Below are positions 5,102 through 21,034 of a DNA stretch of 21,034 nt, in pieces (positions within the stretch are counted from its first letter, which is position 1; the number at the start of each line of letters is the position of its first letter). Under the pieces are notes generated by a model, which saw nothing but the letters and a program-made list of their open reading frames with translations, searched no databases and was not told the DNA's origin. The stretch comes from a virus. The stretch covers positions 1 through 21,034 of IMG/VR virus record IMGVR_UViG_3300020578_000502; one strand, 5' to 3'. The translations under genes were made by a program, and so were the position numbers.

Positions 5102-5280
5102 TGATAAGATATGATATTTTTTGATGGAGCAATGACTAAATTTCCAGATATAGAAATACGATATTCATCACTGGTATAAAAAGGATGTACCATATGATGT
5201 AAAAAAGCAGGAAACATAATTATGGTTCCTTCCCAAGATTTATCTACCTCAACTAGAACATTATTATAGGTTTTTATCAT
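5098..5280 (-). CDS. C-terminal remnant of a 2OG-Fe(II) oxygenase
   Basis: This 60-residue ORF corresponds only to the last third of an oxygenase like the one at 6373-6990. It has WEGTIIMFPAFLHHMVHPF (16-34), with the distal iron histidine in the 'FPsyL.H.V' motif, and EYRISISGNLVIAPS (39-53), with the 2-oxoglutarate-binding arginine. The corresponding stretches of the intact gene are GNILLFPSYLSHSV and ERISISFNMIALP. The proximal HxH/HxD half is missing. It has ATGA-type overlaps at both ends, so the deletion was absorbed into the operon without breaking coupling. It cannot be an active dioxygenase alone. It is either a decaying fragment or a small beta-sheet partner protein. Confidence 0.65.
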   Translation of the reverse strand: MIKTYNNVLVEVDKSWEGTIIMFPAFLHHMVHPFYTSDEYRISISGNLVIAPSKNIISYQ

Positions 5281-6110
5281 TTATATTCAATAAATTTTTT
5301 ATCTAACTTTTCAATTATATCTGGGTCAGTTTTATGATTTGGTTTCCAGAATTCCATATTTATTTTTTGATATTTTTTAACTATTTCTGGTGGAAGAACA
5401 CATCTTGGTGGATTATATTCTACTTTTCTCTTAACTGTATGAAGGTCTTTAAGATTACACGCCCTATCAAAGTTCTCATTTGAATATTCTACATTCTCAA
5501 AATCGTGAGTATAATAAGGTTTTTCCAGAAACTCATACACTTGTCTCATCGTTTTTTCTGGTTCCTTACATAAGTTCTCATATTCAATAAAATGTATCAT
5601 TTCTGGATTGAGAGCATAACCTTCTTGAAGTAATATCCATGGCTCTGCAACAACACCACCATTTTTATTCATCATACCATCGCATCTTGAGAACACATTA
5701 TCATTATGTTCTGCAAGTGTCTTGGTATGAAATGGGTTTTTGGATGAAATCACCTCAAAGGAATTCAAAATAGAAACAATATCTCTTACAGGACATAAGA
5801 TTTTTGTGTAAGGAAAAAGTGCCTGAAGAAAGTTCGTTTTCTTCGTCCAACCACGACAACTATCAAAGATGACTGGTTTCTCTATGCTCTTATAATAACC
5901 ATCAAAAATTCCATACATTAGATTTTTTCTTTGGTCTTCTGTGATTGTAAGATTACTTTCGGCACTTGTGATAATATCAATAGAAGTTTCTGCAATTCTT
6001 TCTACTGGTGAAGCAATATCAGCATAAAACTCTGGATTTTGTTTAAGTATTCCTGAAAGTAATGTAGAACCAGACCTTGGAAGTCCGGAAATAAAATAGA
6101 ACTGCTTCAT
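5277..6110 (-). CDS. Sulfotransferase family protein
   Basis: This 277-residue protein has both PAPS-binding motifs of cytosolic/Golgi-type sulfotransferases. The 5'-phosphosulfate loop is ISGLPRSGSTLLSGIL (residues 7-22). The 3'-phosphate motif is KILCPVRDIVSILNSFE (103-119), with R109 and S113 in the expected places. The C-terminal 'HFIEYENLCKEPEKTMRQVYEFL' segment is the usual family helix pairing. The reaction would move sulfate from PAPS to a hydroxyl, most likely on a sugar made by the surrounding transferases, or to a tyrosine. It overlaps its neighbours by 4 bases on both sides. The full family length is present and no key residue is missing. Confidence 0.8.
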   Translation of the reverse strand: MKQFYFISGLPRSGSTLLSGILKQNPEFYADIASPVERIAETSIDIITSAESNLTITEDQRKNLMYGIFDGYYKSIEKPVIFDSCRGWTKKTNFLQALFPYTKILCPVRDIVSILNSFEVISSKNPFHTKTLAEHNDNVFSRCDGMMNKNGGVVAEPWILLQEGYALNPEMIHFIEYENLCKEPEKTMRQVYEFLEKPYYTHDFENVEYSNENFDRACNLKDLHTVKRKVEYNPPRCVLPPEIVKKYQKINMEFWKPNHKTDPDIIEKLDKKFIEYK

Positions 6111-6376
6111 TGATACTTTATTGATTTCTGCTGATGTTGATGTGTTTCTGTTTTTATATGATTATCCCATTGCCTTAAGTATTTTAATTTTTCTTGTTCG
6201 GTTATAGAATATTGATGAATAAAAAATAATGGATGACCATCTTTAGGATATGATGCAAACATGTCGTGTATTACAGTTTTTACTTTAAGACCATATTTTG
6301 CAATATTTCTACTTACAAGATAATTTGTAATATTTTTATTATAATTTACATCAAGAGTAACTAAAAGTTTTTTCAT
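6107..6376 (-). CDS. Unknown small protein in the glycan operon
   Basis: An 89-residue basic protein. An N-terminal strand KLLVTLDVNY (3-12) is followed by helix NITNYLVSRNIAKYGL (15-30), strand KVKTVIHDM (31-39), then a proline/glycine turn SYPKDGHPLFF. The C-terminal tail is polar, with a His/Gln cluster (HQHQQK, about 79-84). No family is recognised. Both ends overlap neighbours by 4 bases (ATGA), so it is translated as part of the operon between the oxygenase and the sulfotransferase. It might be a fragment of a larger nucleotide-binding enzyme, but no motif proves that. Confidence 0.6.
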   Translation of the reverse strand: MKKLLVTLDVNYNKNITNYLVSRNIAKYGLKVKTVIHDMFASYPKDGHPLFFIHQYSITEQEKLKYLRQWDNHIKTETHQHQQKSIKYQ

Positions 6377-6990
6377 TCTTGCGATTGAGGATATTCAATA
6401 CTACCTTTTGGAAGAGCAATCATATTAAATGAGATTGAAATACGTTCCTCATCGTGATTATTGGTTTCCACTGAATGAGAAAGATACGAAGGAAAGAGAA
6501 GTATATTTCCTTCTACTGGTTCAATACGAATACTTTCTCCTGTGAATTGGTTCTTCTGTGAAGTGAGAGAACAACCATCCCACATACGATTGATTGCTGG
6601 ATTTGAAAGAACTAACTTTCCACTTTCTTCTGGTGCTGAAAGATAAAAGACACCAGAAAACACTTTGCCGTGTACGTGGTCACTATTCATACACTGACGA
6701 GTATCGTTGATATTCATCCAAGCAGAAGTGAGAGCAATATCACAATCAATAAAATCAAGGTCAGCAACTGCTTTAAATCCCATCTGGCAGATATACTCAA
6801 AGAGTGGTCGTAGTTCTGGTAGTCCGTGAAGTGTTTCTGGAGAATGATAACCTGAAATATTTGATTTTTGAATGGAAGGATTTTGTTCTTTATACTCTTT
6901 GACTGCTTTGAGAAAGAGTTCCTTATGTTCCTCAAACTCTGGGTATTCTGACTGCCAAAGTGGAACTGAATAAATGGGCATTAGGTTCAT
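6373..6990 (-). CDS. 2OG-Fe(II) oxygenase, TIGR02466-like
   Basis: This 205-residue protein follows the layout of the phage/marine 'putative 2OG-Fe(II) oxygenase' family: MPIYSVPLWQSEYPEF at the N-terminus, ALTSAWMNINDTRQ (86-99), SDHVHGKVFSGVFYLSAPE (103-121) with H105/H107 as the proximal iron ligands, NILLFPSYLSHSVE (162-175) with the distal H172, and EERISISFNMI (181-191) with R183 for 2-oxoglutarate. The length is normal. It starts 7 bases after the GT25 stop and is coupled to the 89-aa gene by ATGA. Its substrate is unknown; a glycan, a small metabolite or a fibre protein are all possible. It is the intact counterpart of the remnant at 5098-5280. Confidence 0.78.
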   Translation of the reverse strand: MNLMPIYSVPLWQSEYPEFEEHKELFLKAVKEYKEQNPSIQKSNISGYHSPETLHGLPELRPLFEYICQMGFKAVADLDFIDCDIALTSAWMNINDTRQCMNSDHVHGKVFSGVFYLSAPEESGKLVLSNPAINRMWDGCSLTSQKNQFTGESIRIEPVEGNILLFPSYLSHSVETNNHDEERISISFNMIALPKGSIEYPQSQE

Positions 6991-6997
6991 AGTAATC

Positions 6998-7816
6998 TCA
7001 ATTATAATTGAATTTTGGTTTATTTAGTTCTATTTTACGAACCATCAAATTGTCGTTAGGTTTATTATAACAGAAAAAGTCATTTAAATCAAATGAAGAA
7101 CTTTCATTTTTCCAGAAATTAATCACTGAATCTCTACAAGGTTGGTCTCTTGGATGTAATTTAGTTTCTCTTTGATTGGAATGAAACTCTGTGTTTATCG
7201 TAAAAACTGGAAATGAATAAGTCTTACCAGTCTCAAAAATTAAATAATCAACATGTGATGATATTTCTTTGTACTTATAATCACCAATACGATTGACTAA
7301 TTTATATCCTTCCGGAAACTTATGCAATCTTAAGACCTTTTCTGCATAAGGACGATTAATTAAATAACCACTTGCAGAACCACTATCTCTCATTATTGGA
7401 TGTAGATAGAAAGGCATTACCGAATGATGGTTCATACAAAGTTGAATGCAATCCCAATTAAATGGTAAATTATCCATCAAAGTATTCCAATCAAATTTCC
7501 AATAGTCACTTACAGTAATATCACAATCATCTTCCATAATGACTGCTGTTTCCGTATTAGAAGTTTTTAACCAAGTGTCAATTGCTTCCAGATGAGATAA
7601 AGTACAACCAACATCACTTGCTCCACACTTCACTTTTTCATCAAGTACCAAATGTTCCCATTTTTCCTGTTCACTTCCAAGATAATTGGATGCTGATATT
7701 TTGGTGTAGTTAGAGATATTATATTCTCGAAACGTTTTTTCTATACTTTCTTTTCTATCTGTTCTAAAATCTAAATTTATATAATAAACAGGTGGAAAGT
7801 TAGATAAGTTTTTCAT
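6998..7816 (-). CDS. Glycosyltransferase family 25
   Basis: This 272-residue protein shows the GT25 order of motifs: PVYYINLDFRTDRKESI (residues 9-25, the strand-and-Arg start 'v.~INLd...dR'), CGASDVGCTLSHLEAIDTWL (64-83, 'GeiGC.lSH...w'), TAVIMEDDCDI (90-100, the metal-binding EDD), SASGYLINRPYAEKVL (147-162) and VDYLIF (189-194). In bacteria GT25 adds galactose or glucose to LPS or capsule. In animals the family holds the collagen galactosyltransferases, which is of interest beside four collagen-like fibre genes. It is the first gene of the AT-rich operon, behind a possible late-type octamer at 7839-7846. The family call is strong; the acceptor is unknown. Confidence 0.8.
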   Translation of the reverse strand: MKNLSNFPPVYYINLDFRTDRKESIEKTFREYNISNYTKISASNYLGSEQEKWEHLVLDEKVKCGASDVGCTLSHLEAIDTWLKTSNTETAVIMEDDCDITVSDYWKFDWNTLMDNLPFNWDCIQLCMNHHSVMPFYLHPIMRDSGSASGYLINRPYAEKVLRLHKFPEGYKLVNRIGDYKYKEISSHVDYLIFETGKTYSFPVFTINTEFHSNQRETKLHPRDQPCRDSVINFWKNESSSFDLNDFFCYNKPNDNLMVRKIELNKPKFNYN

Positions 7817-7838
7817 AGTTGTACATCACTAAATTATT

Positions 7839-7846
7839 TCTTTATA
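7839..7846 (-). promoter_or_regulatory. Possible late promoter octamer for the glycan operon
   Basis: The minus strand reads TATAAAGA, one mismatch from the T4 late octamer TATAAATA, 22 bases before the GT25 start codon. The surroundings are AT-rich, so chance is a real alternative. Confidence 0.28.
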
Positions 7847-7894
7847 CAAGTTACAAAGTACAAAATTCAATAAAAAATACGCCTGAAGGCACGG
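7844..7894. repeat. 51-bp constant block, copy after lectin-like gene A
   Basis: Identical over 51 bases to 8464-8514. It covers the last eight codons of the gene, including the GCC-TTCA-GGC mini-hairpin, the stop codon and 24 bases of non-coding DNA. The third lectin-like gene keeps a shorter diverged version near 8943-8983. Confidence 0.85.
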
Positions 7895-8307
7895 GCACGG
7901 TGCGCGTTCGTCTTGTTGACGGCCGCATAGGTGCGACCACTATTGAATACTATAAGAGAAGCCTGCGTAGCATTGAACTCTAAACTAGACCAGTAGACGG
8001 CGGAGGGATTGGGGTTCCAATAGTCCCAATGGACATTACAAACGTAACCAAGTTCTAAATCACTACCACTAGGAACAAACCAATCACCACAAGCATCAGA
8101 AGCATTAGCAACAGTAACAGCATCTCCTCGGCTTGTCCAAACTCTATTGACTTCACGAGAAGAACAAGCAACGATCCAAGCAAGACCTCCTTGTCGGGCA
8201 AATAAGTATCCACCTTCTAGTAAAGAACCTAAAGAACAACATCTTAATCCAGCATTATAATGAATGCAACAGATATTACATAATTGATTAGAAGTTAGAT
8301 CTGCCAT
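7867..8307 (-). CDS. Lcl/DUF1566-like variable protein A
   Basis: This 146-residue protein starts MADLTSNQLCNICCIHYNAG and has six Cys in its first 25 residues, with no signal peptide. Residues 30-79 (EGGYLFARQGG, IVACSSREV, then CGDWFVP at 73-79) are nearly identical to its two neighbours. From residue 80 to 138 (up to the RAFRR end) the sequence differs strongly from both, keeping only WD, YW and N-K anchors. The CGDWFVP ... YW(S/T)S.E(F/Y).AT ... RAFRR pattern is that of the Lcl C-terminal (DUF1566) domain, a C-type-lectin-like fold that follows collagen-like stalks in some bacterial proteins. Position after a collagen-like fibre suggests an accessory fibre tip or adhesin. A late-type octamer lies 26 bases before the start. 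Confidence 0.7.
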   Translation of the reverse strand: MADLTSNQLCNICCIHYNAGLRCCSLGSLLEGGYLFARQGGLAWIVACSSREVNRVWTSRGDAVTVANASDACGDWFVPSGSDLELGYVCNVHWDYWNPNPSAVYWSSLEFNATQASLIVFNSGRTYAAVNKTNAHRARAFRRIFY

Positions 8308-8486
8308 TTTTTATAATGTTTCTATTTGTTTTTATTTATTGTGTACTTGTAATCTCTTGGGAATTATTTGACGATAATAAAGACACGTTTGATGAGTTCA
8401 CTTGCGTCTCGATATATTTGAAGATTTTCAACCATTTTCAATCAAAAAATAAAAGCATACAAAATACAAGTTACAAAGTACAAAAT
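8308..8486. other. Intergenic stretch between lectin-like genes A and B
   Basis: This 179-base AT-rich gap holds the duplicated late-type octamer and leader of gene A (8308-8345) and the 51-bp constant block after gene B (8464-8514). The middle part (about 8350-8460) shows no convincing ORF, RNA or repeat. No template-repeat copy of the variable region is visible in it. Confidence 0.6.
8333..8340 (-). promoter_or_regulatory. Late promoter-like octamer before lectin-like gene A
   Basis: The minus strand reads AATAAATA, one base from the T4 late octamer, 25 bases before the ATG. The whole leader from ACAATAAATA to the ATG is repeated almost exactly before gene C (9386-9420), where it includes the end of the fibre 4 coding sequence. 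Confidence 0.5.
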
Positions 8487-8514
8487 TCAATAAAAAATAC
8501 GCCTGAAGGCACGG
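8464..8514. repeat. 51-bp constant block, copy after lectin-like gene B
   Basis: Exact copy of 7844-7894 (end of coding region plus 3' flank). Conservation past the stop codon is not explained by protein selection. Confidence 0.85.
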
Positions 8515-8936
8515 ACACAGCGGACGCAGGACCTAGCGCCGGCTCTTGATATACTTCCGTAGTTTGGACTTGCCTGAAAACACACGTGCCAAGCGTACGT
8601 TAGTAAAACATTGCCATCTGTATTACTCCAGTAGGCAGTGTTGGAGAAAGAGTCCCAAAAGGAACTACACATTTGACCGAGAGAAAGATGGTGGCGATCA
8701 GGAACAAACCAATCACCACAAGGATTAGAAGCATTAGCAACAGTAACAGCATCTCCTCGGCTTGTCCAATCTCTAGAGACTTCACGAGAAGAACAAGCAA
8801 CGATCCAAGCAAGACCTCCTTGTCGGGCAAATAAGTATCCACCTTCTAGTAAAGTACCTAAAGAACAACATCTTAATCCAGCATTATAATGAATGCGACA
8901 GATATTACATAATTGATTAGAAGTTAGATCTGCCAT
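8487..8936 (-). CDS. Lcl/DUF1566-like variable protein B
   Basis: I chose the ATG at 8936 because it gives the same MADLTSNQLC start as genes A and C. The open frame continues upstream to 9053, but that extension only reads through gene C in another frame. The product is 149 residues. Residues 1-79 differ from gene A at few places. From 80 on (DRHHLSLGQMCSSFWDSF and after) it is distinct, with a longer insert after the YW motif and a CVRCVRAFRR end instead of the single CVRAFRR seen in gene C. It follows gene C by 20 bases with no separate late octamer, so it is probably co-transcribed with C. It is a likely adhesin-type C-lectin-like protein; function not proven. Confidence 0.68.
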   Translation of the reverse strand: MADLTSNQLCNICRIHYNAGLRCCSLGTLLEGGYLFARQGGLAWIVACSSREVSRDWTSRGDAVTVANASNPCGDWFVPDRHHLSLGQMCSSFWDSFSNTAYWSNTDGNVLLTYAWHVCFQASPNYGSISRAGARSCVRCVRAFRRIFY

Positions 8937-8956
8937 TTTTTTATAAAGTACAAAAT

Positions 8957-9385
8957 TTAATAAAAAACACGCCTGAAGGCACGGACACAGAACGTAGTCG
9001 TCTTGTTCGCAATGCCTGACCGGAAACCGTTGCACACCATGTAGAAAGCCCACGTTGCATCGTACTCTGTACTAGTCCAGTATTTATTGTTGGAGGAAGA
9101 GTCCCAAAAGCATCTACACTCGACACCATATTTTGTATCATCACGACAAGGAACAAACCAATCACCACAAGCATCAGAAGCATTAGCAACAGTAACAGCA
9201 TCTCCTCGGCTTGCCCAAACTCTAGAGACTTCACGAGAAGCACAAGCAACGATCCAAGCAACACCTCCTTGTCGGGCAAATAAGTATCCACCTTCTACTA
9301 AAGAACCTAAAGCACAACATCTTAATCCAGCATTATAATGCTTGCAACAGATATTACATAATTGATTAGAAGTCAGATCTGCCAT
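8957..9385 (-). CDS. Lcl/DUF1566-like variable protein C
   Basis: This 142-residue protein is first of the three in transcription order. It has the shared N-terminal region (LCNICC, LRCC, FARQGG, CGDWFVP), then its own variable segment beginning CRDDTKYGVECRCFWDSSSN. It is closest to the textbook domain pattern: YWTSTEYDATWAFYMV then ANKTTTFCVRAFRRVFY. Cys content is high for a cytoplasmic-assembled phage protein. It starts 15 bases after the fibre 4 stop, and its AATAAATA octamer lies within the last codons of fibre 4. Close linkage to a collagen-like fibre fits a role at the fibre tip. Differences among A, B and C concentrate in first and second codon positions of many, though not all, variable codons. 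Confidence 0.7.
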   Translation of the reverse strand: MADLTSNQLCNICCKHYNAGLRCCALGSLVEGGYLFARQGGVAWIVACASREVSRVWASRGDAVTVANASDACGDWFVPCRDDTKYGVECRCFWDSSSNNKYWTSTEYDATWAFYMVCNGFRSGIANKTTTFCVRAFRRVFY

Positions 9386-9399
9386 TTTTTATAATGTTT

Positions 9400-12006
9400 C
9401 TATTCGTTTTTATTTATTGTGTTTTTTTTCAGTTCATCAATTTCCTTCTGTTGTTCTTTAATTGCCTCAATCAACAATCCAACAATGTTCCCATAAGACA
9501 CTGATTTAAGTCCATCTGGATTGCTCATTACTACTTCAGGTAATACTTTTTCAATATCTTGTGCAATTACACCAATTGATGGTTGGTTATGATTATCTAT
9601 CCACTTATATTTAACACCTTGAATCTGTTTTACAGTATCAATAGCATTTGTAATTGGCGTGATATCAGTTTTTTGTGTTTTATCAGAAAGTGAAGTGAAT
9701 GCTGTTGCTGATAGTGTTCCTGTAGAAGGATTAAATGTAAGTTTTGATGATGAAGTATTAGGTGTGAATGTTCCAGAGGTTGCTGTTGCAAAAGTTGGAT
9801 ATCTTGTAGCATTTGTTGTAGTATCATCTGTTATTGTTCCACTACCAGCAGCACCTTGAGCACCTGTGGCACCTGTGCCTCCTGTGGCACCTTGAGCACC
9901 TGTGGCACCTGTACCTCCTGTACCTCCTGTTGCACCTTGAGCACCTGTGGCACCTGTGCCTCCTGTGGCACCTTGAGCACCAGTACCTCCTGTACCTCCT
10001 GTACCTCCTGTTGCACCTTGAGCACCTGTGGCACCTGTGCCTCCTGTGGCACCTTGAGCACCAGTACCTCCTGTACTTCCTGTACCTCCTGTTGCACCTT
10101 GAGCACCTGTGGAACCAGTAGCACCTTGTGCACCTGTACCACCAGCAGCTCCTTGAGCTCCTTGAGCTCCTTGAGCACCAACACCACCTGTACCACCAGC
10201 AGCTCCTTGAGCTCCTTGAGCTCCTTGAGCTCCTTGAGCACCAACTGCACCTTGAGCTCCTACAGCACCTTGAGGACCAACAGCAGTTGATGGTGTTATA
10301 TCAATATAAGTTCCACCTGGAGCACTGACTAATGTAGAACTGTTAGTCCAAGTTTGTCCAGATGGGAATTGAACTTGATAAGTTGAACCACTACCAGTGA
10401 AAGATCCAAAATTTCCATATATGGCATAAGAGGTTGTTGATACTTGAACAATTCTAATTGAAGCTGGAGCACTTGAACTTGTCCCTAAGGAAGTTATTCT
10501 ATAAGCTAATCCATCACCATAAAATCCAGCATTATTGCTACTGTTATTAGATGTTTTAAAATAAAGTTTAGTTACTTGGTTTTGAGTGGTATCTGCATTG
10601 TATCCATTTTTTGCAACAATGGTCATGTATAGTGAAGAACCATTTTGAGCAGTTCCCCAAGTTCCTAATAAAATATAAGAAGAACTTCCTCCAGTTTCTG
10701 GAAGTGTAAAAGTTGTTGCACCAACAGCACCTTGGGCACCTTGAGCTCCTTGAGATCCTACTGCACCTTGAGCACCTTGAGATCCTACAGCACCTTGAGC
10801 TCCTTGTGTGCCCACAGCACCTTGAGCACCTGGAGATCCTTGAGCACCTGGAGAACCTTGTGCACCTGCAGAACCTTGAGCCCCAGCAGTTCCTTGTGCT
10901 CCTGCTGTACCTTGAGCACCTTGAGCACCTGCAGAACCTTGAGCACCTGGAGAACCTTGAGCACCAGTGCCTCCTGTACCTCCTGTGGAACCTTGAGCAC
11001 CTGCTGTACCTTGAGCACCTGCAGAACCTTGAGCACCTGCAGAACCTTGAGCACCTTGAGCGCCTTGAGCACCAGTGGTTCCAGTGTCTCCTTTATCACC
11101 AGTTCTCGCAAAGGTGATAATAATATCTTCACCATTACTATAAGATGTTGATCCAGAAAGTCTTGTACAAGGAATTTTAAAATATCCCGTCGCTTCTGTA
11201 GCTACACCATCAATTGTGAAGAGAGTAAAATCAGCAGAATTCAGTCTATTGGAAATTCTAAAGTGACCTCTAATCCCTGAGGTTGAATCATCAATAGTTC
11301 TTAGATACACTTGAATGTCAATGGCACCATCGGATTCATCATCAATGAACATTTGAGTAGCGGAACTCAAGTCACTGTTATTGAATCTTAAGGTTCCAGT
11401 TCCTGGATCACTATCGGTTGTGCTAGTGCTAAAAGTATAATCAAATGTAGCGCCACCAAAATTACCATCGGCACCTTGAGCACCTTGAGCTCCTTGTGCA
11501 CCACCAGATCCTTGAACACCAGATACACCTTGAACTCCTTGAGCTCCCTGTGCACCTTGAGCACCTTGAGCTCCCTGTGCGCCTTGAGCACCTTGAGCAC
11601 CCTGAGCACCTTGGGCGCCTTGGGCACCAACGGCACCCTGAGATCCTATGGCACCTTGAGCTCCTTGAGCACCTTGAGCACCTTGAGATCCTACCGCACC
11701 TTGAGCACCTTGAGATCCCACAGCACCTTGAGCACCTTGAGCACCAACAACACCTTGAGCTCCCTGAGCGCCTTGAGCTCCTTGAGCACCTTGAGCTCCT
11801 TGAGCACCTACAGCGCCTTGAGCACCTACAGCGCCTTGAGCACCTACAGCGCCTTGAACTCCTTGAGCACCTTGGGCACCTTGAACACCTTGAGCACCAG
11901 GATCAGGAATTCTCTGCCAAGCAGTTCCGTTCCATTGCCACCTTCTACCATTGGCAACATAAAAATCATTAAGAGCGGGACTATTTGGAAAATCTAGTGC
12001 TGCCAT
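9400..12006 (-). CDS. Collagen-like tail fibre 4 with S74 chaperone domain
   Basis: This 868-residue fibre starts with a short attachment-type module ([10 protein letters not shown]...W.WNGTAWQR, residues 6-32). GXY collagen repeats (about 37-178, mostly GAQ) and a globular domain (about 179-300) shared with fibre 3 follow. A second collagen stretch (about 301-426), a second beta-rich globular domain (about 428-572) and a third collagen stretch (about 573-718) come next. A '[13 protein letters not shown]' linker leads to a C-terminal peptidase S74 domain of about 95 residues: SDKTQKTDI with the Ser-(x4)-Lys dyad, [16 protein letters not shown], and [20 protein letters not shown]74 domains trimerise the fibre and then cut themselves off just before the Ser. 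Gln replaces the usual hydroxyproline position. An AATAAATA octamer precedes the gene. Confidence 0.88.
9411..9418 (-). promoter_or_regulatory. Late promoter-like octamer before lectin-like gene C
   Basis: AATAAATA on the minus strand, 25 bases upstream of the ATG and embedded in the final codons of fibre 4. The same octamer and leader precede gene A. Confidence 0.5.
9847..10275. repeat. Collagen-coding DNA repeat, fibre 4 segment 3
   Basis: About 430 bases of 9-base GXY units (plus-strand CACCTTGAG and CACCTGTGG variants) code for GAQ/GAT/GGT triplets. Near-identical units recur in fibres 2 and 3, so slippage and recombination between genes are likely. Confidence 0.85.
11071..11531. repeat. 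461-bp shared domain, copy in fibre 4
   Basis: Collinear, without visible indels, with 15689-16149 in fibre 3, at high identity with scattered, mostly silent changes. It encodes the globular domain from [13 protein letters not shown] to [13 protein letters not shown] plus flanking GXY triplets. Confidence 0.85.
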
Positions 12007-12021
12007 TATCTACTTTTTAGT

Positions 12022-12029
12022 TATTTATT
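12022..12029 (-). promoter_or_regulatory. Late promoter-like octamer before fibre 4
   Basis: AATAAATA on the minus strand, followed by ACTAAAAAGTAGATA and the ATG. The same block precedes fibres 3 and 2. Confidence 0.55.
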
Positions 12030-12351
12030 CTGGTTTTGGATACTTGTCTTTGATTGCTTGAATTTGTGCTGCCATTTCTGGTGGAAAAACTCCAGCGTGA
12101 AACAGAGCATCAAGTTGGTCACCGATAGATGGATACTCTGGTTTTCTCTGTCTCTGATACTCAGTGCGTTCGTGCTCTGCTTTGAGTCTTTCTATTTCTT
12201 GTAGGATTTCTTCATCACTTGGTCTTTCTATGTCTTTACTTAACCAAGTCAATCCTTCTACTTGATTTTGATGACAATACCATTTTGATCCTGGACATAA
12301 AACTTCAAGGGCATTTGATACTCCTATTGGTCTTTCTAAATCGAATTTCAT
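12025..12351 (-). CDS. Fibre-associated chaperone-like protein (pair 3)
   Basis: A 108-residue soluble protein. It has an N-terminal 'lcPGSKWYCHQNQVEGLTW' segment that parallels 'LRPGAqW..NGe.Y.GL.W' in the other two copies, a helix rich in E/K/R (EEILQEIERLKAEHERTEYQR, about 46-66), then EYPSIGDQLDALFHAG (72-87) and a C-terminal KDKYPKPE. This matches the XkdW/DUF4376-type small proteins encoded next to tail fibres, thought to aid fibre folding or attachment. Its start overlaps the adhesin gene stop by 4 bases. It is the most diverged of three tandem copies. Chaperone function is inferred from position and pattern only. Confidence 0.65.
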   Translation of the reverse strand: MKFDLERPIGVSNALEVLCPGSKWYCHQNQVEGLTWLSKDIERPSDEEILQEIERLKAEHERTEYQRQRKPEYPSIGDQLDALFHAGVFPPEMAAQIQAIKDKYPKPE

Positions 12352-12833
12352 TGTGCTATCTCCATAACTAGAATGGAATGGTCACCAAAAGCATAAGATC
12401 TTTCCCAAGTTCCACCATCCCAACCTTGGGCGTGAATAGTAAAAGTGGTTGGATTTGTATTGTTGGCATCTATGTAACACTCACATTTTCCTGTATAATG
12501 ATGATTAACTTGATCACCCTTATAGAAAAAATCCCAACTATCTCTTTGGAATTGACCAGGAATTTTAGTACCATCCCTTCTTATGCCAAAAGAAATACCA
12601 TTAGCATTGATTATTCTGGTGTGATATTGTGTCCTTACAAGAAGTTTTGATGTAGAAAATTTAGGAGTAAATGTCAAAGATACGTCCGAATCCAGTTCGG
12701 TGTTGAGCGCTACTGTTGTGTAAGAATCTGCATTTGGATCATATCTTGCATATCCAGTTTGAATTACATTTCCAGTAGGAAGTATGGTCACTGAGGAAGT
12801 ATTTTGAATAGTATTAACTCTTAATGTGCTCAT
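12348..12833 (-). CDS. Short fibre-like adhesin (pair 3)
   Basis: This 161-residue protein starts MSTLRVNTIQNTSSVTILP, the same N-terminal module as the two neighbouring copies (MST(I/L)(K/R).N.IQ.T.....L..TG..(I/L)Q). The rest alternates beta strands with many Thr/Ser/Asn, as in jelly-roll receptor-binding heads of short fibres. It ends in SILVMEIAQ, parallel to VILMEVSG and IVVMEVSA in the others. There is no collagen region. It forms a coupled pair with the chaperone-like gene at 12025-12351 (ATGA) and shares one base with the preceding pair member. Probably a virion adhesin; the receptor is unknown. Confidence 0.65.
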   Translation of the reverse strand: MSTLRVNTIQNTSSVTILPTGNVIQTGYARYDPNADSYTTVALNTELDSDVSLTFTPKFSTSKLLVRTQYHTRIINANGISFGIRRDGTKIPGQFQRDSWDFFYKGDQVNHHYTGKCECYIDANNTNPTTFTIHAQGWDGGTWERSYAFGDHSILVMEIAQ

Positions 12834-13138
12834 TATTCTTCTCCTGGTTTTGGATATTTATTTTTCACTTCATCAACCATTGTTTTCCAACCATCATAAC
12901 CTTGATGATATAAAGTATCTAGTTGGTCTTCAATAGAAGGATACTCCTTAGCACGGTCTCTTTGATATTGATTATTATTATATTCTTGTTGAAGTCTTTC
13001 TATTTCTTGATTGACTTCTTCTTCTGTTGGTGGTGGTAAATCATTGTCATCAGACCACCATAATCCTTCATAAGCATCTCCATTTATAAACCAACTTGCT
13101 CCTGGTCTTAGAGAATGAACTGCGTGTATAATATCCAT
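12833..13138 (-). CDS. Fibre-associated chaperone-like protein (pair 2)
   Basis: A 101-residue copy of the XkdW-like family. It has VHSLRPGASWFINGDAYEGLWW at residues 7-28, an acidic-to-basic helix (EEEVNQEIERLQQEYNNNQYQR), KEYPSIEDQLDTLYHQGYDGW, and KNKYPKPGEE at the end. It is closer to the copy at 13680-14009 in its first 30 residues than to the one at 12025-12351. The start shares one base with the adhesin stop at 13138 (TAATG), and its own stop shares one base with the next adhesin start, giving continuous translational coupling. Confidence 0.65.
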   Translation of the reverse strand: MDIIHAVHSLRPGASWFINGDAYEGLWWSDDNDLPPPTEEEVNQEIERLQQEYNNNQYQRDRAKEYPSIEDQLDTLYHQGYDGWKTMVDEVKNKYPKPGEE

Positions 13139-13680
13139 TATCCTGAAACCTCCATTAATATTACTGTAGATCCACAGCGGGCATTGTAACCTTGTGTGTC
13201 ATTTGTATCATTATAAGTTCTGTTTAGTCCAAAACCTTGACTGCCGACGTATTCGGCCCTAACTTGAAGTTGATAGGTTAATGCTGATGTTGATGATGGA
13301 CTATCAAGAATAGTATGAGATATAGAACCCGTATGATTAACATCTCTACCTTGATTAGAATCTGTAAAATGTATTTGTTGTCTAACACCAGCAGCATCTC
13401 CAAGGCCAGCGGTCATTACAGAACCATTTCTTGTGATTCTAAATGCATTATTATTAATACCACTAATTTTACCCAGATTAAATTGGACTAATATTTTATT
13501 TGAAGAACTTGATGGTGTTATAGTTGCCGACATTCCAGTAACATCATAAAAAGTTTCAGCAGTCGAACTATAAAAGGTATCAGTCTTTGTTGTTTGAACC
13601 ACCTGTAAAATACTACCAGTACTATTCAGTATAGGTTTCCCAGCAGTAGTTTGAATTGCGTTAGTCTTGATGGTACTCAT
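13138..13680 (-). CDS. Short fibre-like adhesin (pair 2)
   Basis: A 180-residue beta-rich protein. Residues 1-27 (MSTIKTNAIQTTAGKPILNS and after) equal those of the adhesin at 14009-14548, with 53 identical bases at the 5' end. Then come a shared scaffold (F.DV.G.S.T.TPSSSSNK.L) and a variable loop region, ending in a similar tail (YNARCGSTVILMEVSG). Conserved ends with a diverged middle fit a receptor-binding head that changes its loops. It is coupled with the chaperone-like gene downstream by TAATG. No enzymatic motif is visible. Confidence 0.66.
   Translation of the reverse strand: MSTIKTNAIQTTAGKPILNSTGSILQVVQTTKTDTFYSSTAETFYDVTGMSATITPSSSSNKILVQFNLGKISGINNNAFRITRNGSVMTAGLGDAAGVRQQIHFTDSNQGRDVNHTGSISHTILDSPSSTSALTYQLQVRAEYVGSQGFGLNRTYNDTNDTQGYNARCGSTVILMEVSG
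13628..13680. repeat. 53-bp identical gene start, adhesin pair 2
   Basis: Identical to 14496-14548. It encodes the first 17 codons of both adhesins and would serve as a recombination handle. Confidence 0.85.
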
Positions 13681-14009
13681 TATTCAACACCTTCTGGTTT
13701 AGGATACTTTGCCTTCACAGCAAGACACGCATCTATATATGCCTGTACTTGTTCAGTATCACCTTTCACAATACCATCAAGATACTCTTTAAAGTCTGGG
13801 TATTCTTTGGCACGAAGTCTCTGATACTCAGTGTTCTCCCATTTCTGTTGAAGTCTTACTACTTCTGCTTCAACTTCTTCTCTTGTTGGTTTCTTTTGAC
13901 CACCTTCCCATACTGGTTTTTCTAACCACTGTAAACCATCATAAGTTTCACCATTAAGAGACCATTGTGCTCCTGGTCTTAAAGTTAAAACTGCTTGTGT
14001 AATATCCAT
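13680..14009 (-). CDS. Fibre-associated chaperone-like protein (pair 1)
   Basis: A 109-residue XkdW-like protein. It has LTLRPGAQWSLNGETYDGLQW (residues 8-28), a charged helix REEVEAEVVRLQQKWENTEYQR, KEYPDFKEYLDGIVKGD, and VKAKYPKPEGVE. It is the longest of the three copies because of a short extension after WLEKP. It is coupled to both adhesin neighbours through one-base overlaps. The pairing of each adhesin with its own helper suggests specificity between partners, as with fibre-assembly proteins of other phages. Confidence 0.65.
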   Translation of the reverse strand: MDITQAVLTLRPGAQWSLNGETYDGLQWLEKPVWEGGQKKPTREEVEAEVVRLQQKWENTEYQRLRAKEYPDFKEYLDGIVKGDTEQVQAYIDACLAVKAKYPKPEGVE

Positions 14010-14548
14010 TATGCAGAAACCTCCATTACAACAATTGATGAGGTAGCTCTAGGGTCATAACCTGAGGTGTTTCTATCAGTTACAGATCTGTTTATAAACA
14101 TAGTACCTCCTTGACCATCAACTCTTGCACTTGCTTGAATTTTATAAGTTATAGCACTTGATGTTGCGGGAGAATCTAAGAAATCCATAGATTCTCTAAA
14201 ATAAGGTCCATCTGACTGACTGTTTGTTTCGTGTGAATATACCATAAAGTTTCTTGGTCTACTACCTGCTACATCTGCAAGACCAATTTCTGTTGAATTG
14301 CGTATCAGTCCGATATGACCAACAAAGAAAGAATTAATATAAGTTAAATTAACCATAATTAAAAATTTACTGGATGAAGAAGATGGAGTTAAGGTAACAC
14401 TTAATCCTGAAACATCAACCAAAGATGTACTAGTGGTCGTAAAAGCGTCTGTTTTATATGCTTGAGCAACTTGAAGAATACTCCCAGTGCTATTGAGTAT
14501 AGGTTTCCCAGCAGTAGTTTGAATTGCGTTAGTCTTGATGGTACTCAT
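14009..14548 (-). CDS. Short fibre-like adhesin (pair 1)
   Basis: This 179-residue protein is the first of the triplicated set in transcription order and the only one preceded by its own late-type octamer (GATAAATA, 14567-14574). The N-terminal 27 residues are the shared module. The middle (about 30-165) is beta-rich with many Ser/Thr and differs from the other two copies. The end, ATSSIVVMEVSA, is conserved. Its start lies 24 bases after the fibre 3 stop. It probably forms a short accessory fibre or caps a fibre. The fold is inferred from composition. Confidence 0.66.
   Translation of the reverse strand: MSTIKTNAIQTTAGKPILNSTGSILQVAQAYKTDAFTTTSTSLVDVSGLSVTLTPSSSSSKFLIMVNLTYINSFFVGHIGLIRNSTEIGLADVAGSRPRNFMVYSHETNSQSDGPYFRESMDFLDSPATSSAITYKIQASARVDGQGGTMFINRSVTDRNTSGYDPRATSSIVVMEVSA
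14496..14548. repeat. 53-bp identical gene start, adhesin pair 1
   Basis: Exact copy of 13628-13680. Confidence 0.85.
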
Positions 14549-14566
14549 ATCACTTTATATTTCCTC

Positions 14567-14572
14567 TATTTA

Positions 14573-14574
<2 letters not shown>
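14567..14574 (-). promoter_or_regulatory. Late promoter-like octamer before the adhesin set
   Basis: GATAAATA on the minus strand, 18 bases before the ATG and overlapping the fibre 3 stop. It is followed by AGAGGAAAT, whose GAGG could be a far-placed ribosome site. Confidence 0.45.
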
Positions 14575-16570
<1,996 letters not shown>

Positions 16571-16582
16571 CTACTTTTTAGT

Positions 16583-16590
16583 TATTTATA
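16583..16590 (-). promoter_or_regulatory. Late promoter octamer before fibre 3
   Basis: A perfect T4-type TATAAATA on the minus strand, overlapping the stop of the 83-aa gene. ACTAAAAAGTAGATA follows and then the ATG. Confidence 0.65.
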
Positions 16591-16837
16591 TTCCAAGAAG
16601 ATCTTTGAGTTCTTCTATGGTGAGTCCTGCTGCTTCTAGTTTTTGTTGAGCAGTTAGAGGTTCTGGTTCGGGAATGGGGTCTGGTTTATCCGCCAGAAGC
16701 GGGGTATTGCCTTCTTCTAACCATTTTAAATACTCTTCATTTAATTCTCTATGAACTGAAGCACCATCAGAAAGACGAAGTGCATAAGGTAATAAATCAC
16801 CTGTTATTGGATGTTGAACAAGTTTGTAGTTTTCCAT
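16586..16837 (-). CDS. Small fibre-associated protein, 83 aa
   Basis: An 83-residue acidic protein. YKLVQHPITGDLLPYALRLSDG (4-25) is followed by helix NEEYLKWLEEGNTPL (33-47), a proline-rich linker (PDPIPEPEPL, 52-61), then QQKLEAAGLTIEELKDLLGI at the C-terminus. The 'EYL.WLEEGNTPLpa' and 'KLEAaGLT.eELK.LLG' segments are typical of short proteins beside phage tail fibres, where they are thought to help assembly. It has the best ribosome site in the window, AAGGAG, 8 bases before the ATG and overlapping the fibre 2 stop. It therefore follows fibre 2 directly and probably serves it. Confidence 0.68.
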   Translation of the reverse strand: MENYKLVQHPITGDLLPYALRLSDGASVHRELNEEYLKWLEEGNTPLLADKPDPIPEPEPLTAQQKLEAAGLTIEELKDLLGI

Positions 16838-16848
16838 TGTCTATCTCC

Positions 16849-18957
16849 TTAGAATTCTGCAGAGGCAGTCCAAGCACCTATCGTTGCAAAATGCGCTGGG
16901 CCGGTCCATCCGTCCGGCTGGGATCTGGGGTAAATATATAATTGCATATTGTTCTCGTTAGATACTGTGGCCGACACCCAGACAGCAGCCCATGGTTGGT
17001 ATTCACGATATAATATCCACTGACCCGCAGCAGCTCCGCCATTGATGGGGTTGGTGATGACGAAGGGGGGGATAAAAGTTACTGTAGAAGGTTTAGTTCT
17101 CATTGTTACTGGAAAATAAATATTTGGGAGGAAGGCCGCATTCGGCCCAGACAGTGCATAAGCATATCCACTAAAATACATTTCATTGTTGCTGGAATGA
17201 GCTCCTTGGACAGTTGCAACAACATCAGTATTGCTATTTTTACAAAAATACCTCTGACACAACGCCAGCTCCTGCCCAAAGCTGCGCGACTCAAACGGTG
17301 TGGCGACGGAGCCGACTTCCAGCTGCACACCGGTGATGTAAGCATCCCTACTTATCCCTCCGATTTCGAGACCTGCTAGAACATTCGTTCCGGCAACTGT
17401 AGGAACCGTAAACTGATGTTGGTAGCGTGCCCAACCATTTGTCCACGTCGCGTTGGGATTGGAAGAAGTAAATGACACTTGATTGCTGGTACTAAACTTA
17501 GAGTCTCTAAAGTTTATTACGGTTTGGATTCCTTCTGTGCCAGTGTCTACCTTTGCATAATAGCTTAAAGTTAAGGTGGTTCCAGCGACAAGTTGACCTT
17601 GTTCCCCTGTTGCACGCAGCTCAATGGGCTGACCCAGTGCCATATCTGAAGCACTGTAGGTTAACTTTGTTGAATAGGTAAAACCATCCGGTGCATCAGT
17701 GCTTCTGGTAGCGGAAGCAGCATTTACCATCCAAAATCGGTCAGCGCCGTATTGGCCGCTTGTCGCCTGCGAAGTTCCTCTTTGCCAGACATCCATCCCG
17801 CCGTTGATGATAAAATTACGAGAACCAGCAGAACCTGTAGCACCTTGAGCGCCTTGAGCACCAGTAGTGGCAGAACCAGGAGCTCCTTGAGCACCTTGAG
17901 CACCTGTGGCACCTGTACCTCCTGTGGCACCTTGAGCACCAGTAGTGGCAGAACCAGGAGCTCCTTGAGCACCAACAGCACCTTGAGCGCCTTGAGCACC
18001 AGTAGTGGCAGAACCAGGAGCTCCCTGAGCACCTTGAGCACCAGTAGTGGCAGAACCAGGAGCTCCTTGAGCACCTTGAGCACCTGTGGAACCAGTAGCA
18101 CCTTGTGCACCTGTGGCACCTGTACCTCCTGTGGAACCTTGAGCACCTTGAGCACCTGTGGAACCAGTAGCACCTTGTGCACCTTGAGCACCTGTGGAAC
18201 CTTGAGCACCTTGAGCACCTGTGGAACCAGTAGCACCTTGTGCACCTGTACCTCCTGTGGCACCTTGAGCACCTTGAGCACCTGTGGAACCAGTAGCACC
18301 TTGTGCACCTTGAGCACCTGTGGAACCTTGAGCACCTTGAGCACCTGTGGAACCAGTAGCACCTTGTGCACCTTGAGCACCTGTGGAACCAGTAGCACCT
18401 TGAGCACCTGTGGAACCAGTAGCACCTTGTGCACCTGTGGCACCTGTACCTCCTGTGGAACCTTGAGCACCTTGAGCACCTGTGGAACCAGTAGCACCTT
18501 GTGCACCTGTACCTCCTGTGGCACCTTGAGCACCTTGAGCACCTGTGGAACCAGTAGCACCTTGTGCACCTTGAGCACCTGTGGAACCAGTAGCACCTTG
18601 AGCACCTGTGGAACCAGTGCCACCTGCACCACCAGCAGCACCTTGAGCTCCTTGAGCTCCCTGAGCACCTTGAGCGCCTTGAGCACCAACTGCACCTTGA
18701 GATCCTACTGCACCTTGAGCTCCTTGAGCACCCACTGTGCCTGTAGCACCTTGAGCTCCTTGAGATCCTACAGCACCTTGAGCACCTACGCTACCTTGTA
18801 CACCTTGAGCACCTTGAGCTCCCTGTGCACCTTGAGCTCCCTGAGCACCGGTGCTAGATTGTCTTTTCCATACGGTTCCATTATATTGAAACGTAACACC
18901 ATTACTAGTGTAAGTATCACCATTATTTGGACTATTAGGAAAATTAAACGCTGCCAT
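16849..18957 (-). CDS. Collagen-like tail fibre 2 with carbohydrate-binding-like tip
   Basis: This 702-residue fibre has the N-terminal module [20 protein letters not shown] then YNGTVWKRQ (4-33). A single long collagen stretch (about 36-378) of [12 protein letters not shown] follows, including four [11 protein letters not shown] units that break the Gly-every-third phase. A C-terminal part of 324 residues begins [20 protein letters not shown]. This start, the ADRFWM motif, and the [18 protein letters not shown]...ELALCQRYF block are a widespread phage tip arrangement: a CBM-like jelly roll followed by a receptor-binding region. The tip DNA is visibly more GC-rich than the neighbouring genes. 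A CATAAATA octamer lies before the gene. The 83-aa helper follows. Confidence 0.87.
17822..18855. repeat. Collagen-coding DNA repeat, fibre 2
   Basis: About 1 kb of 9-base GXY units with larger repeats. The unit encoding [12 protein letters not shown] recurs many times, and [11 protein letters not shown] occurs four times near the 3' end of the stalk. Confidence 0.85.
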
Positions 18958-18972
18958 TATCTACTTTTTGGT

Positions 18973-18980
18973 TATTTATG
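18973..18980 (-). promoter_or_regulatory. Late promoter-like octamer before fibre 2
   Basis: CATAAATA on the minus strand at the stop of the 118-aa gene, followed by ACCAAAAAGTAGATA and the ATG. One base of this leader differs from those of fibres 3 and 4. Confidence 0.5.
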
Positions 18981-19332
18981 TAAAATTGTGCATCTCATCT
19001 GCGGATCCAATAATGTTAATAGGTTGGTTTAAAGGCGTGATTTGTGCAGGTATAATTTGCTGTTTAAGCGCATCTCTATAAAGTTCTTGATTCTGATAGT
19101 TTGCTTTTACAACTTCATTTCTAAAACTTTCTACAGCTGCTCCAGTTTGATTTGATTTCTGAGCAATTTCTACTGCCATCACAGGCATCCAAGTCACTGC
19201 ACAACCCCACTCATCGACAGGTTCTCCTGTATTTGGATTTGTGCCTCTCATTTGAGTATACCAAGCACACTTCAATCCAATACAATCTTTTTTAATCAAT
19301 GGACAAAAATTGCCTGGTTTTATCTTAGCCAT
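18976..19332 (-). CDS. Conserved phage protein with four cysteines, 118 aa
   Basis: This 118-residue protein begins MAKIKPGNFCPLIKKDCIGL and continues KCAWYTQMRGTNPNTGEPVDEWGCAVTWMP. Cysteines at 9, 17, 22 and 44 are spaced to suggest a metal site or small structural zinc/iron site. A helix (MAVEIAQKSNQTGAAVESFRNEVVKANYQNQELYRDAL, about 53-90) and a proline-rich tail follow. I recall very similar small proteins in many marine phages near tail-fibre genes, always of unknown function. It lies between the 91-aa and fibre 2 genes with short gaps. A redox or zinc role is only a guess from the Cys pattern. Confidence 0.68.
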   Translation of the reverse strand: MAKIKPGNFCPLIKKDCIGLKCAWYTQMRGTNPNTGEPVDEWGCAVTWMPVMAVEIAQKSNQTGAAVESFRNEVVKANYQNQELYRDALKQQIIPAQITPLNQPINIIGSADEMHNFT

Positions 19333-19345
19333 AACTAAAACTACA

Positions 19346-19621
19346 TTATATCACGTTTTCTGATATTGAAGAAGTTCCAACTCCGACTGGTTCACTTACA
19401 ATACTTATAAGGTGAGTGTCTAATGCTGCAAGATATGGTTGTAGAATAGTATCGTCAGTAATTTCTTCATTTCTTTGTGGATTTTTCCATTCAATTTCCC
19501 CATGATCTTCATACCATTGAATCGCATGAATATCAGAATCTTCAAAATTCCATTCTTGAAGATGTGCAGCAGTTTCGTCCTTTCTAATCCATTTATCGGT
19601 TGGAATAATTGTTACTCTCAT
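19346..19621 (-). CDS. Fibre-associated small protein, 91 aa
   Basis: A 91-residue acidic protein. MRVTIIPTDKWIRKDETAAH then WNFEDSDIHAIQWYEDHGEI (24-43) forms a compact alpha/beta start. ITDDTILQPYLAALDTHL (54-71) is a helical part, and the tail is Ser/Val-rich and flexible. The 'IHAIQWY...GEIE' signature is typical of small proteins placed right after long fibres in T4-like marine phages, probably fibre chaperones or connectors. It starts 16 bases after the fibre 1 stop with a GAGGA ribosome site about 12 bases upstream, so it is co-transcribed with fibre 1. Confidence 0.66.
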   Translation of the reverse strand: MRVTIIPTDKWIRKDETAAHLQEWNFEDSDIHAIQWYEDHGEIEWKNPQRNEEITDDTILQPYLAALDTHLISIVSEPVGVGTSSISENVI

Positions 19622-19637
19622 TGCTAATTATCCTCGA

Positions 19638-21034
19638 TTAATCTTTACTACAAAGTATAACATCTATGTACTGAACTGCAAAGTCCATTGACGATCCACT
19701 GAAAGAAGCAGTGTTAGCGTGAGTGTGAGATGCGCCACCACCTGTATTAGACATACTGAATTCAACTACACCATCTGTTCCACCTCCAGTTGCTCGACCA
19801 CTATTTACGTTTCCATATACATGAAGATTAAGGTTTGTAATACTTGTTGTGTGGTTATGAGAAGGCATTTCATTTGTCGTCAATGTATGAGCAGCATTAC
19901 TCATAGAAACAGAACCACTAGGCGTTCTGGAAGTAAAGACTGATGTAAATGCAGTTGAACCTCCCGTTCCACCACCAGTTCCAGAAACAACTCTCAATGC
20001 TTTGTTATCTTGAGTAGTAACCTTTGTCCATCCTGTAGGTGCGTTTGCTTGGTAAAGTAAAAATACAGATCCAGAGGGAATCACAGCGGATGCAGAACCA
20101 ATGGCACCTTGAACACCCTGAGCACCTTGAGCACCTTGAGCACCAGCACCACCAGAACCACCAGCAGCACCTTGAGCACCCGTGGCACCTACAGCACCTT
20201 GAGCACCAGCACCACCTGTACCACCAGCAGCACCTTGAGCGCCCGCTGAACCAGCAGCACCTTGAGCACCAGCACCACCTGTACCACCAGCAGCACCTTG
20301 AGCACCTGTGGCACCTACAGCACCTTGAGCACCAGCACCACCTGTACCACCAGCAGCACCTTGAGCGCCTTGAGCACCTGTGGCACCTACAGCACCTTGA
20401 GCTCCAACAGCACCTTGAGCTCCTTGAGCACCTACAGCACCAGTTGCACCTTGAGCACCTACAGCACCAGTTGCACCTTGAGCTCCTTGAGCTCCTACTG
20501 CACCTTGAGCACCTTGAGCTCCTACTACACCTTGAGCACCAGTTGCACCTTGAGCTCCTTGTGCACCTTGAGCACCTACAGTACCAGTTGCACCCTGAGA
20601 TCCTTGAGCGCCTTGAGCGCCTTGAGCACCTTGAGCACCAGTGCCTCCTGTACCACCAGCAGCACCTTGAGATCCTTGAGCACCTTGAACTCCTTGAGCA
20701 CCTTGAGCACCAGTGCCTCCTGTACCACCAGCAGCACCTTGAGATCCTTGAGCACCTTGAACTCCTTGAGCACCTTGAGATCCTTGAGCACCTTGAGATC
20801 CTTGAGCACCTTGAGATCCTTGAGCACCTTGAGCTCCTTGAGCACCTGCAGAACCTTGAGCACCTGCAGAACCTTGAGCACCTGCAGAACCTTGAGCACC
20901 TGCAGAACCTTGAGCACCTTGAGGTCCAATTGGACCAGTATTAATTGATACCCATTGATTACTATCACCATCAGCATAATACACATGAAGATCACCATCA
21001 TCACTGTCCCACCAAAGATCTCCAGGTCTTGCAT
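19638..21034 (-). CDS. Collagen-like tail fibre 1 (5' end outside window) with gp12/collar-like tip
   Basis: The frame is open to the window edge: before the GTG at 20984 it still reads [19 protein letters not shown], a phage structural motif. The gene therefore starts beyond 21034, and the visible part is the last 465 or so residues. A PIGPQGAQ junction opens a collagen stretch of about 280 residues (GAQ, GSA, GSQ, GGT, GAV). The last 155 residues or so are a tip related to the phage collar/short-fibre family: [39 protein letters not shown], and two HxH motifs (PSHNH and SHTH). In T4 gp12 and gp37, HxH groups coordinate a metal along the trimer axis. It ends in [13 protein letters not shown]. 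Confidence 0.87.
20098..20932. repeat. Collagen-coding DNA repeat, fibre 1
   Basis: About 830 bases of 9-base GXY units. A 63-base block coding for [21 protein letters not shown]-type triplets is tandemly duplicated near 20640-20770, and a GSAGAQ unit is repeated four times near 20840-20915. Confidence 0.8.

Follow-up and report, generated by a model that had tools for sequence, protein, structure and literature searches.

The stretch of DNA analysed here (hereafter, the window) is an entire virus record of 21,034 bases, a fragment of a phage genome that carries collagen-like tail-fibre genes, one tRNA-Ile, and glycan-modifying genes encoding a family 25 glycosyltransferase, a sulfotransferase, and a 2OG-Fe(II) oxygenase (Pfam). 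The glycosyltransferase gene (6998..7816, minus strand; PF01755) and the oxygenase gene (6373..6990, minus strand; PF13759) were placed by Pfam and gene order, and relatives of this oxygenase are found almost solely in Synechococcus, Prochlorococcus, and Pelagibacter phages. The GAQ-rich collagen-like tail-fibre genes form a long series (9400-20984) adjoining the lectin-type adhesin genes described below, and the sulfotransferase gene lies at 5277-6110. No DNA match was obtained by megablast of the whole window against cultured phages, and tblastn of the target proteins against the same phages gave nothing significant. Close relatives of the window were found neither by an exact 30-nt pattern search nor by a scan of genome contigs, and an Rfam scan returned nothing in 7800-9450.

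Between the glycosyltransferase gene and the tail-fibre genes, the minus strand carries three open reading frames encoding variable proteins of the type targeted by diversity-generating retroelements (DGRs), i.e., copy C (8957..9385, 142 aa), copy B (8487..8936, 149 aa, counted from the ATG at 8936), and copy A (7867..8307, 146 aa). All three match the family profile, and the proteins also show a weak Lcl_C Pfam match. The nucleotide identity among the copies is 95-97% over the first 237 nt, up to the CGDWFVP motif, drops in the variable segment to 41-53%, with 12-27 gap columns, and is again 90-97% in the final 30 nt (GTCCGTGCCTTCAGG to the stop codon). The variable segments, bounded by alignment, comprise 54 codons in C (8987..9148), 61 in B (8517..8699), and 58 in A (7897..8070), and are followed by conserved, IMH-like 3' ends (8957..8986 in C, 8487..8516 in B, and 7867..7896 in A), which were assigned by comparison with the 3' ends of targets and templates. 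The alignment also revealed a 37-nt leader element in front of C (9386..9422, minus strand) and a near-copy of it in front of A (8308..8344, minus strand).

Thus, the three tandem paralogs with a sharply bounded variable segment, which had been the core of the original prediction, were confirmed, and the contrast in identity is far from chance. Residues 1-79, described there as almost the same in all copies, are not fully constant in spite of the high nucleotide identity, as 12 codons in this part differ with amino acid changes and one codon differs silently. These differences (in 9149-9385, 8700-8936, and 8071-8307) lie mostly at first codon positions, with G recurring in copy C at sites that are T, C, or A in the other two copies. 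The length change ascribed to copy B is real, but A also differs in length from C. Third-position changes, of which "some" had been noted, are in fact frequent (17, 22, and 19 differences at first, second, and third positions between C and B in the last part).

The assignment of the proteins to an Lcl/C-type lectin domain also stood. While the Lcl_C match is below the Pfam cut-off, a sequence profile finds the C-terminal domain of Legionella Lcl (PDB 8q4e) with an E-value of 1.8e-11. Copy C, modelled with AlphaFold (pLDDT 76; residues 1-19 unreliable), has its best structural match in the same domain (Z 14.3; Foldseek E 6.6e-7), followed by other C-type lectin folds (8oks, Z 11.3). The variable residues lie near the C terminus of this fold, and a C-type lectin fold is the usual one for DGR targets (PMC8144416). 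Lcl is a collagen-like protein that binds sulfated glycans (PMC11162425), and its C-terminal domain is the closest solved fold to the window proteins. The collagen link of Lcl reminds us of the collagen-like fibres adjoining the lectin genes here, whereas in the window these fibres are separate genes, and Lcl is not a DGR target.

Directly behind copy B, i.e., between B and A, lies a truncated avd gene that the original prediction overlooked (8337..8435, minus strand). This 99-nt pseudogene stub corresponds to avd codons 1-33, the rest being missing, and shows 89% identity (E 1.6e-31) to the intact avd of two related contigs, L018 and L028. Read from 8435 to 8337 it translates as MVENLQIYRDASELIKRVFIIVK*FPRDYKYTI, the start of Avd, with a nonsense codon at position 24. 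Its differences from L018 comprise eight silent ones, a single replacement, and the nonsense change; because nearly all of them, the stop codon aside, are silent, the gene was under selection until recently. The stub ends abruptly in the 8-nt sequence ACACAATA (8337-8344), which also opens the leaders of A and C and probably marks the joint of a deletion or fusion.

No other part of a DGR core was detected in the window. RVT_1 gave no match to a DGR-type reverse transcriptase (RT) anywhere in the 21-kb fragment, an adenine-tolerant scan for a template repeat (TR) matched only the three copies themselves, and the family profile, which in seven RT-bearing records picks up the template as a short match of its own, found none here. 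The earlier statement that neither an RT nor a template repeat is present therefore holds, and a complete, acting DGR is not supported at this locus.

Relatives of the target genes were gathered from IMG/VR by profile searches, and in several of them an RT lies beside the target gene. The order target, avd, template, RT, and 2OG-oxygenase was found in L028, L029/L030, L031, L032, L033, L035, and L139; the template was aligned to the VR in L028-L031, L035, L036, and L139/L168, and was marked by the A3 profile alone in L032/L033. The Avd of these relatives was identified by Pfam bAvd (63.3 bits; cut-off, 40) and also matches NCBIfam DivGenRetAVD (E 4e-17, below its cut-off). The differences between target and template bear the mark of adenine mutagenesis. 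In L035, the differences of three targets from one template number 19, 14, and 17 (50 in total), all of them at adenines, and the numbers at adenines and elsewhere are 12 and 0 in L036, 21 and 2 in L029, and 17 and 1 in L031. The target of L028 matches its own template in part only, with non-adenine differences, perhaps reflecting a slowing system; among the closely examined RT-bearing relatives, it is the sole one without a clean target/template match.

The templates that could be aligned by their 3' anchor (L028-L031, L035, and L036) end in CGTGCCTTC(A/C)GG followed by AGT, and their targets carry TGT or CGT instead, which is an IMH/IMH*-type difference. In each of the three window copies, CGTGCCTTCAGG is followed by the target-type CGT, where templates have AGT. 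The intact DGRs of these uncultured cyanomyovirus-like phages (L028-L036 and L139) thus share with the window the target family, the 3' end, an avd related to the stub, and the downstream 2OG-oxygenase, which is the conserved neighbor of the DGR core (85% amino acid identity between the window copy and those of L028/L029); they differ in possessing the complete avd, template, and RT, which occupy the interval held here by the glycosyltransferase gene. Judging from this homology to targets that stand beside a template and an RT, the window genes belong by descent to the DGR target family. The resemblance to DGR targets noted earlier is therefore strengthened by intact homologs, the lectin fold, the target-type 3' end, and the adjoining fossil avd, while a working system at this locus is not supported, given the missing RT, template, and two thirds of avd, together with the nonsense codon in what remains.

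Whether one template made A, B, and C can be judged from their differences. Targets sharing one template in L035 show 0, 0, and 0 third-position differences (of 39 codons), whereas pairs of the window copies show 15-19 plus 4-9 gap codons in the last part. With such length and third-position differences, the variation among A, B, and C is not limited to template adenines, and one template with adenine mutagenesis cannot explain all three; any DGR action must have been followed or accompanied by recombination or ordinary change. Compared with the L029 template, mismatches are more frequent at adenines than elsewhere in B (26/45 vs. 20/84, p = 1.4e-4), A (24/45 vs. 24/84, p = 0.005), and C (20/43 vs. 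22/83, p = 0.02), an enrichment for which codon position is in part a confounder. All 10 RT-linked targets have 33 residues from YW to RAFR, whereas 11 of the 25 targets that lack a linked RT, A and B of the window among them, deviate from this length (p = 0.015); as the members of an array are not independent, the length is no more than suggestive as a marker of RT linkage. Copy B resembles another type of variable segment (YWSNTD), which is seen in L001. We read the window segments as products of different past templates and/or of exchanged cassettes, which outlasted the loss of the core.

Core loss is not confined to the window. In six contigs, including the window, intact targets adjoin an avd stub, and the breakpoints of these stubs differ. 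In L009, avd codons 1-59 are joined to RT residues 285-342; in L024, avd 1-42 is followed by an RT tail; and in L007, avd is reduced to 14 codons. In L002, avd is split by an IS605-type OrfB insertion and there is no RT; the OrfB (TnpB-like) gene lies inside the avd remnant (L002:4856-6105), and the three targets of this contig still look freshly templated. Compared with the intact locus of its close relative G025/L168, L171/G026 has lost ~1.5 kb, and the 243-kb G026 has four targets, no RT, and only the broken avd, with no second copy. This T4-like pair (L171 / G026:C1:167000-173000, core deleted, and L168 / G025:C1:4500-9000, intact, at the same junction) is usable as a natural before/after comparison. 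Judging from the breakpoints rather than from a tree, related viruses seem to have lost the DGR core several times independently. G022-G024, strains that are 95-99.97% identical, share neighbor genes with the window and carry other target types, and their orthologous variable segments differ little.

On this evidence we consider it likely that the window holds an orphaned DGR locus, with targets that are probably frozen, in a tailed phage of the T4-like, cyanomyovirus-like group. It is the fossil avd, together with the parallel deletions in relatives, that leads us to regard the machine as gone at this locus. The ancestor would have had targets encoding tail adhesins of C-type lectin fold, followed by avd, the template repeat, the RT, and the 2OG-oxygenase gene. 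In that state, copies of the template made by the RT, with errors at adenines, would have been introduced into the 3' ends of the targets. Later, a deletion (or a duplication and deletion), probably through the ACACAATA sequence common to avd and the target leader, may have eliminated the RT and the template along with two thirds of avd, and thereby placed copy A directly behind the stub. The simplest ancestral order would be C, B, avd, template, RT, A, with the deletion occurring between two ACACAATA copies. What is left would be three adhesins in an array, each with a different binding tip that is probably fixed by now, and the differences of these tips in length and at silent positions point to the past use of at least two templates and/or to exchange of the variable cassette by recombination. 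We infer the order of these events, the fixed state of the tips today, and a role of the adhesins in host attachment. A point against this reading is that the near-identity of the first 237 nt of A, B, and C calls for a recent duplication or conversion combined with replacement of the cassette by some agent.

Since the window is a 21-kb fragment, its three copies might instead be distant targets of a still-active DGR whose RT, avd, and template(s) lie elsewhere in the genome, the stub being only what remains of a core that was duplicated or moved; we judge this to be unlikely. Targets far from the core have been described for other DGRs (PMC4891356; PMC8144416), one L035 target lies ~5 kb from its RT, and the core-less targets of L002 and L009 show clear template-like third-position conservation. 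In L002, third-position differences number 0, 1, and 1 of 39 codons, and such near-perfect conservation fits either a very recent loss or RT action in trans, both of which are possible in this group. However, the lengths and third positions of A, B, and C preclude a common single template, the avd at the window locus is broken, and the 243-kb G026, which has a like scar, contains neither an RT nor a second avd. A broader idea, that the DGR core is dispensable and is repeatedly lost or regained while the targets stay, with phages diversifying while they have it and later fixing the repertoire by its deletion, or being rewritten by an RT acting in trans from a co-infecting phage with an intact core, is also one that we hold to be doubtful, if somewhat less so.

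Length differences and third-position changes would also be expected if the copies were ordinary tail-adhesin paralogs that exchange cassettes by homologous recombination between conserved flanks, with no DGR in their past and a stub that merely came with flanking DNA. The 237-nt and 30-nt flanks are conserved enough for such recombination, and copy B looks like the YWSNTD type of L001. We nevertheless regard this explanation as quite improbable, as the target-type 3' end is identical to the base with that of intact DGR targets, the stub behind B occupies the exact position of the intact avd in relatives, and mismatches to foreign templates are enriched at template adenines. That the copies diverged after gene duplication solely by positively selected point mutations is hardly credible. 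Replacement changes do dominate even the conserved start (12 vs. 1 silent), but the 79 upstream codons contain only one silent change, whereas in the variable part about half of the bases have changed and indels occur as well; the two parts cannot share one age, and this explanation is close to refuted.

In the Bordetella phage BPP-1, the DGR genes are arranged as mtd, avd, TR, and brt. The order target, avd, TR, and RT is thus the same in BPP-1 and in the present family. The two also share a C-type lectin target at the tail-fibre tip and the IMH/IMH* difference at the 3' end (PMC6199706; PMC4891356). BPP-1 is temperate and its DGR is intact, whereas the window has several small target genes and a deleted core, and its T4-like relatives have no detected integrase. 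The nearest parallel to an orphaned locus is found in Treponema denticola, in which some isolates have target genes without an RT or TR, read by the authors as remnants (PMC4891356). That case concerns core-less target genes on a bacterial chromosome, whereas the window is from a phage and retains an avd stub, and the losses in its relatives are marked by several different breakpoints. Our literature search, incomplete in its coverage, found no paper on DGR core loss marked by phage avd stubs.

DGR surveys look for RTs, and core-less loci are therefore invisible to them; RT-centered surveys also miss remote targets (PMC8144416). An avd stub beside variable proteins is a direct marker of core loss. 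The present phage group shows intact, freshly lost, and long-lost states of one locus, which makes it testable whether loss of the mutator is neutral decay or the adaptive fixing of a good adhesin.

One survey found DGRs in temperate phages only (PMC6199706). No phage integrase was found in 12 records, one of them 243 kb long, and the portal family PF07230, for which S-CAM1 served as the positive control, identified G025 and G026 as T4-like (the T4 capsid family PF07068 gave no match in a search in which no control responded). In contrast to that survey, DGRs are thereby placed in T4-like phages without a detected integrase. The T4-type portal genes of these two relatives (G025:C1:22376-24160 and G026:C1:182636-185356) match the family in two pieces separated by an in-frame insert, within open frames of 726 and 1038 aa, respectively, and this insert is possibly an intein.
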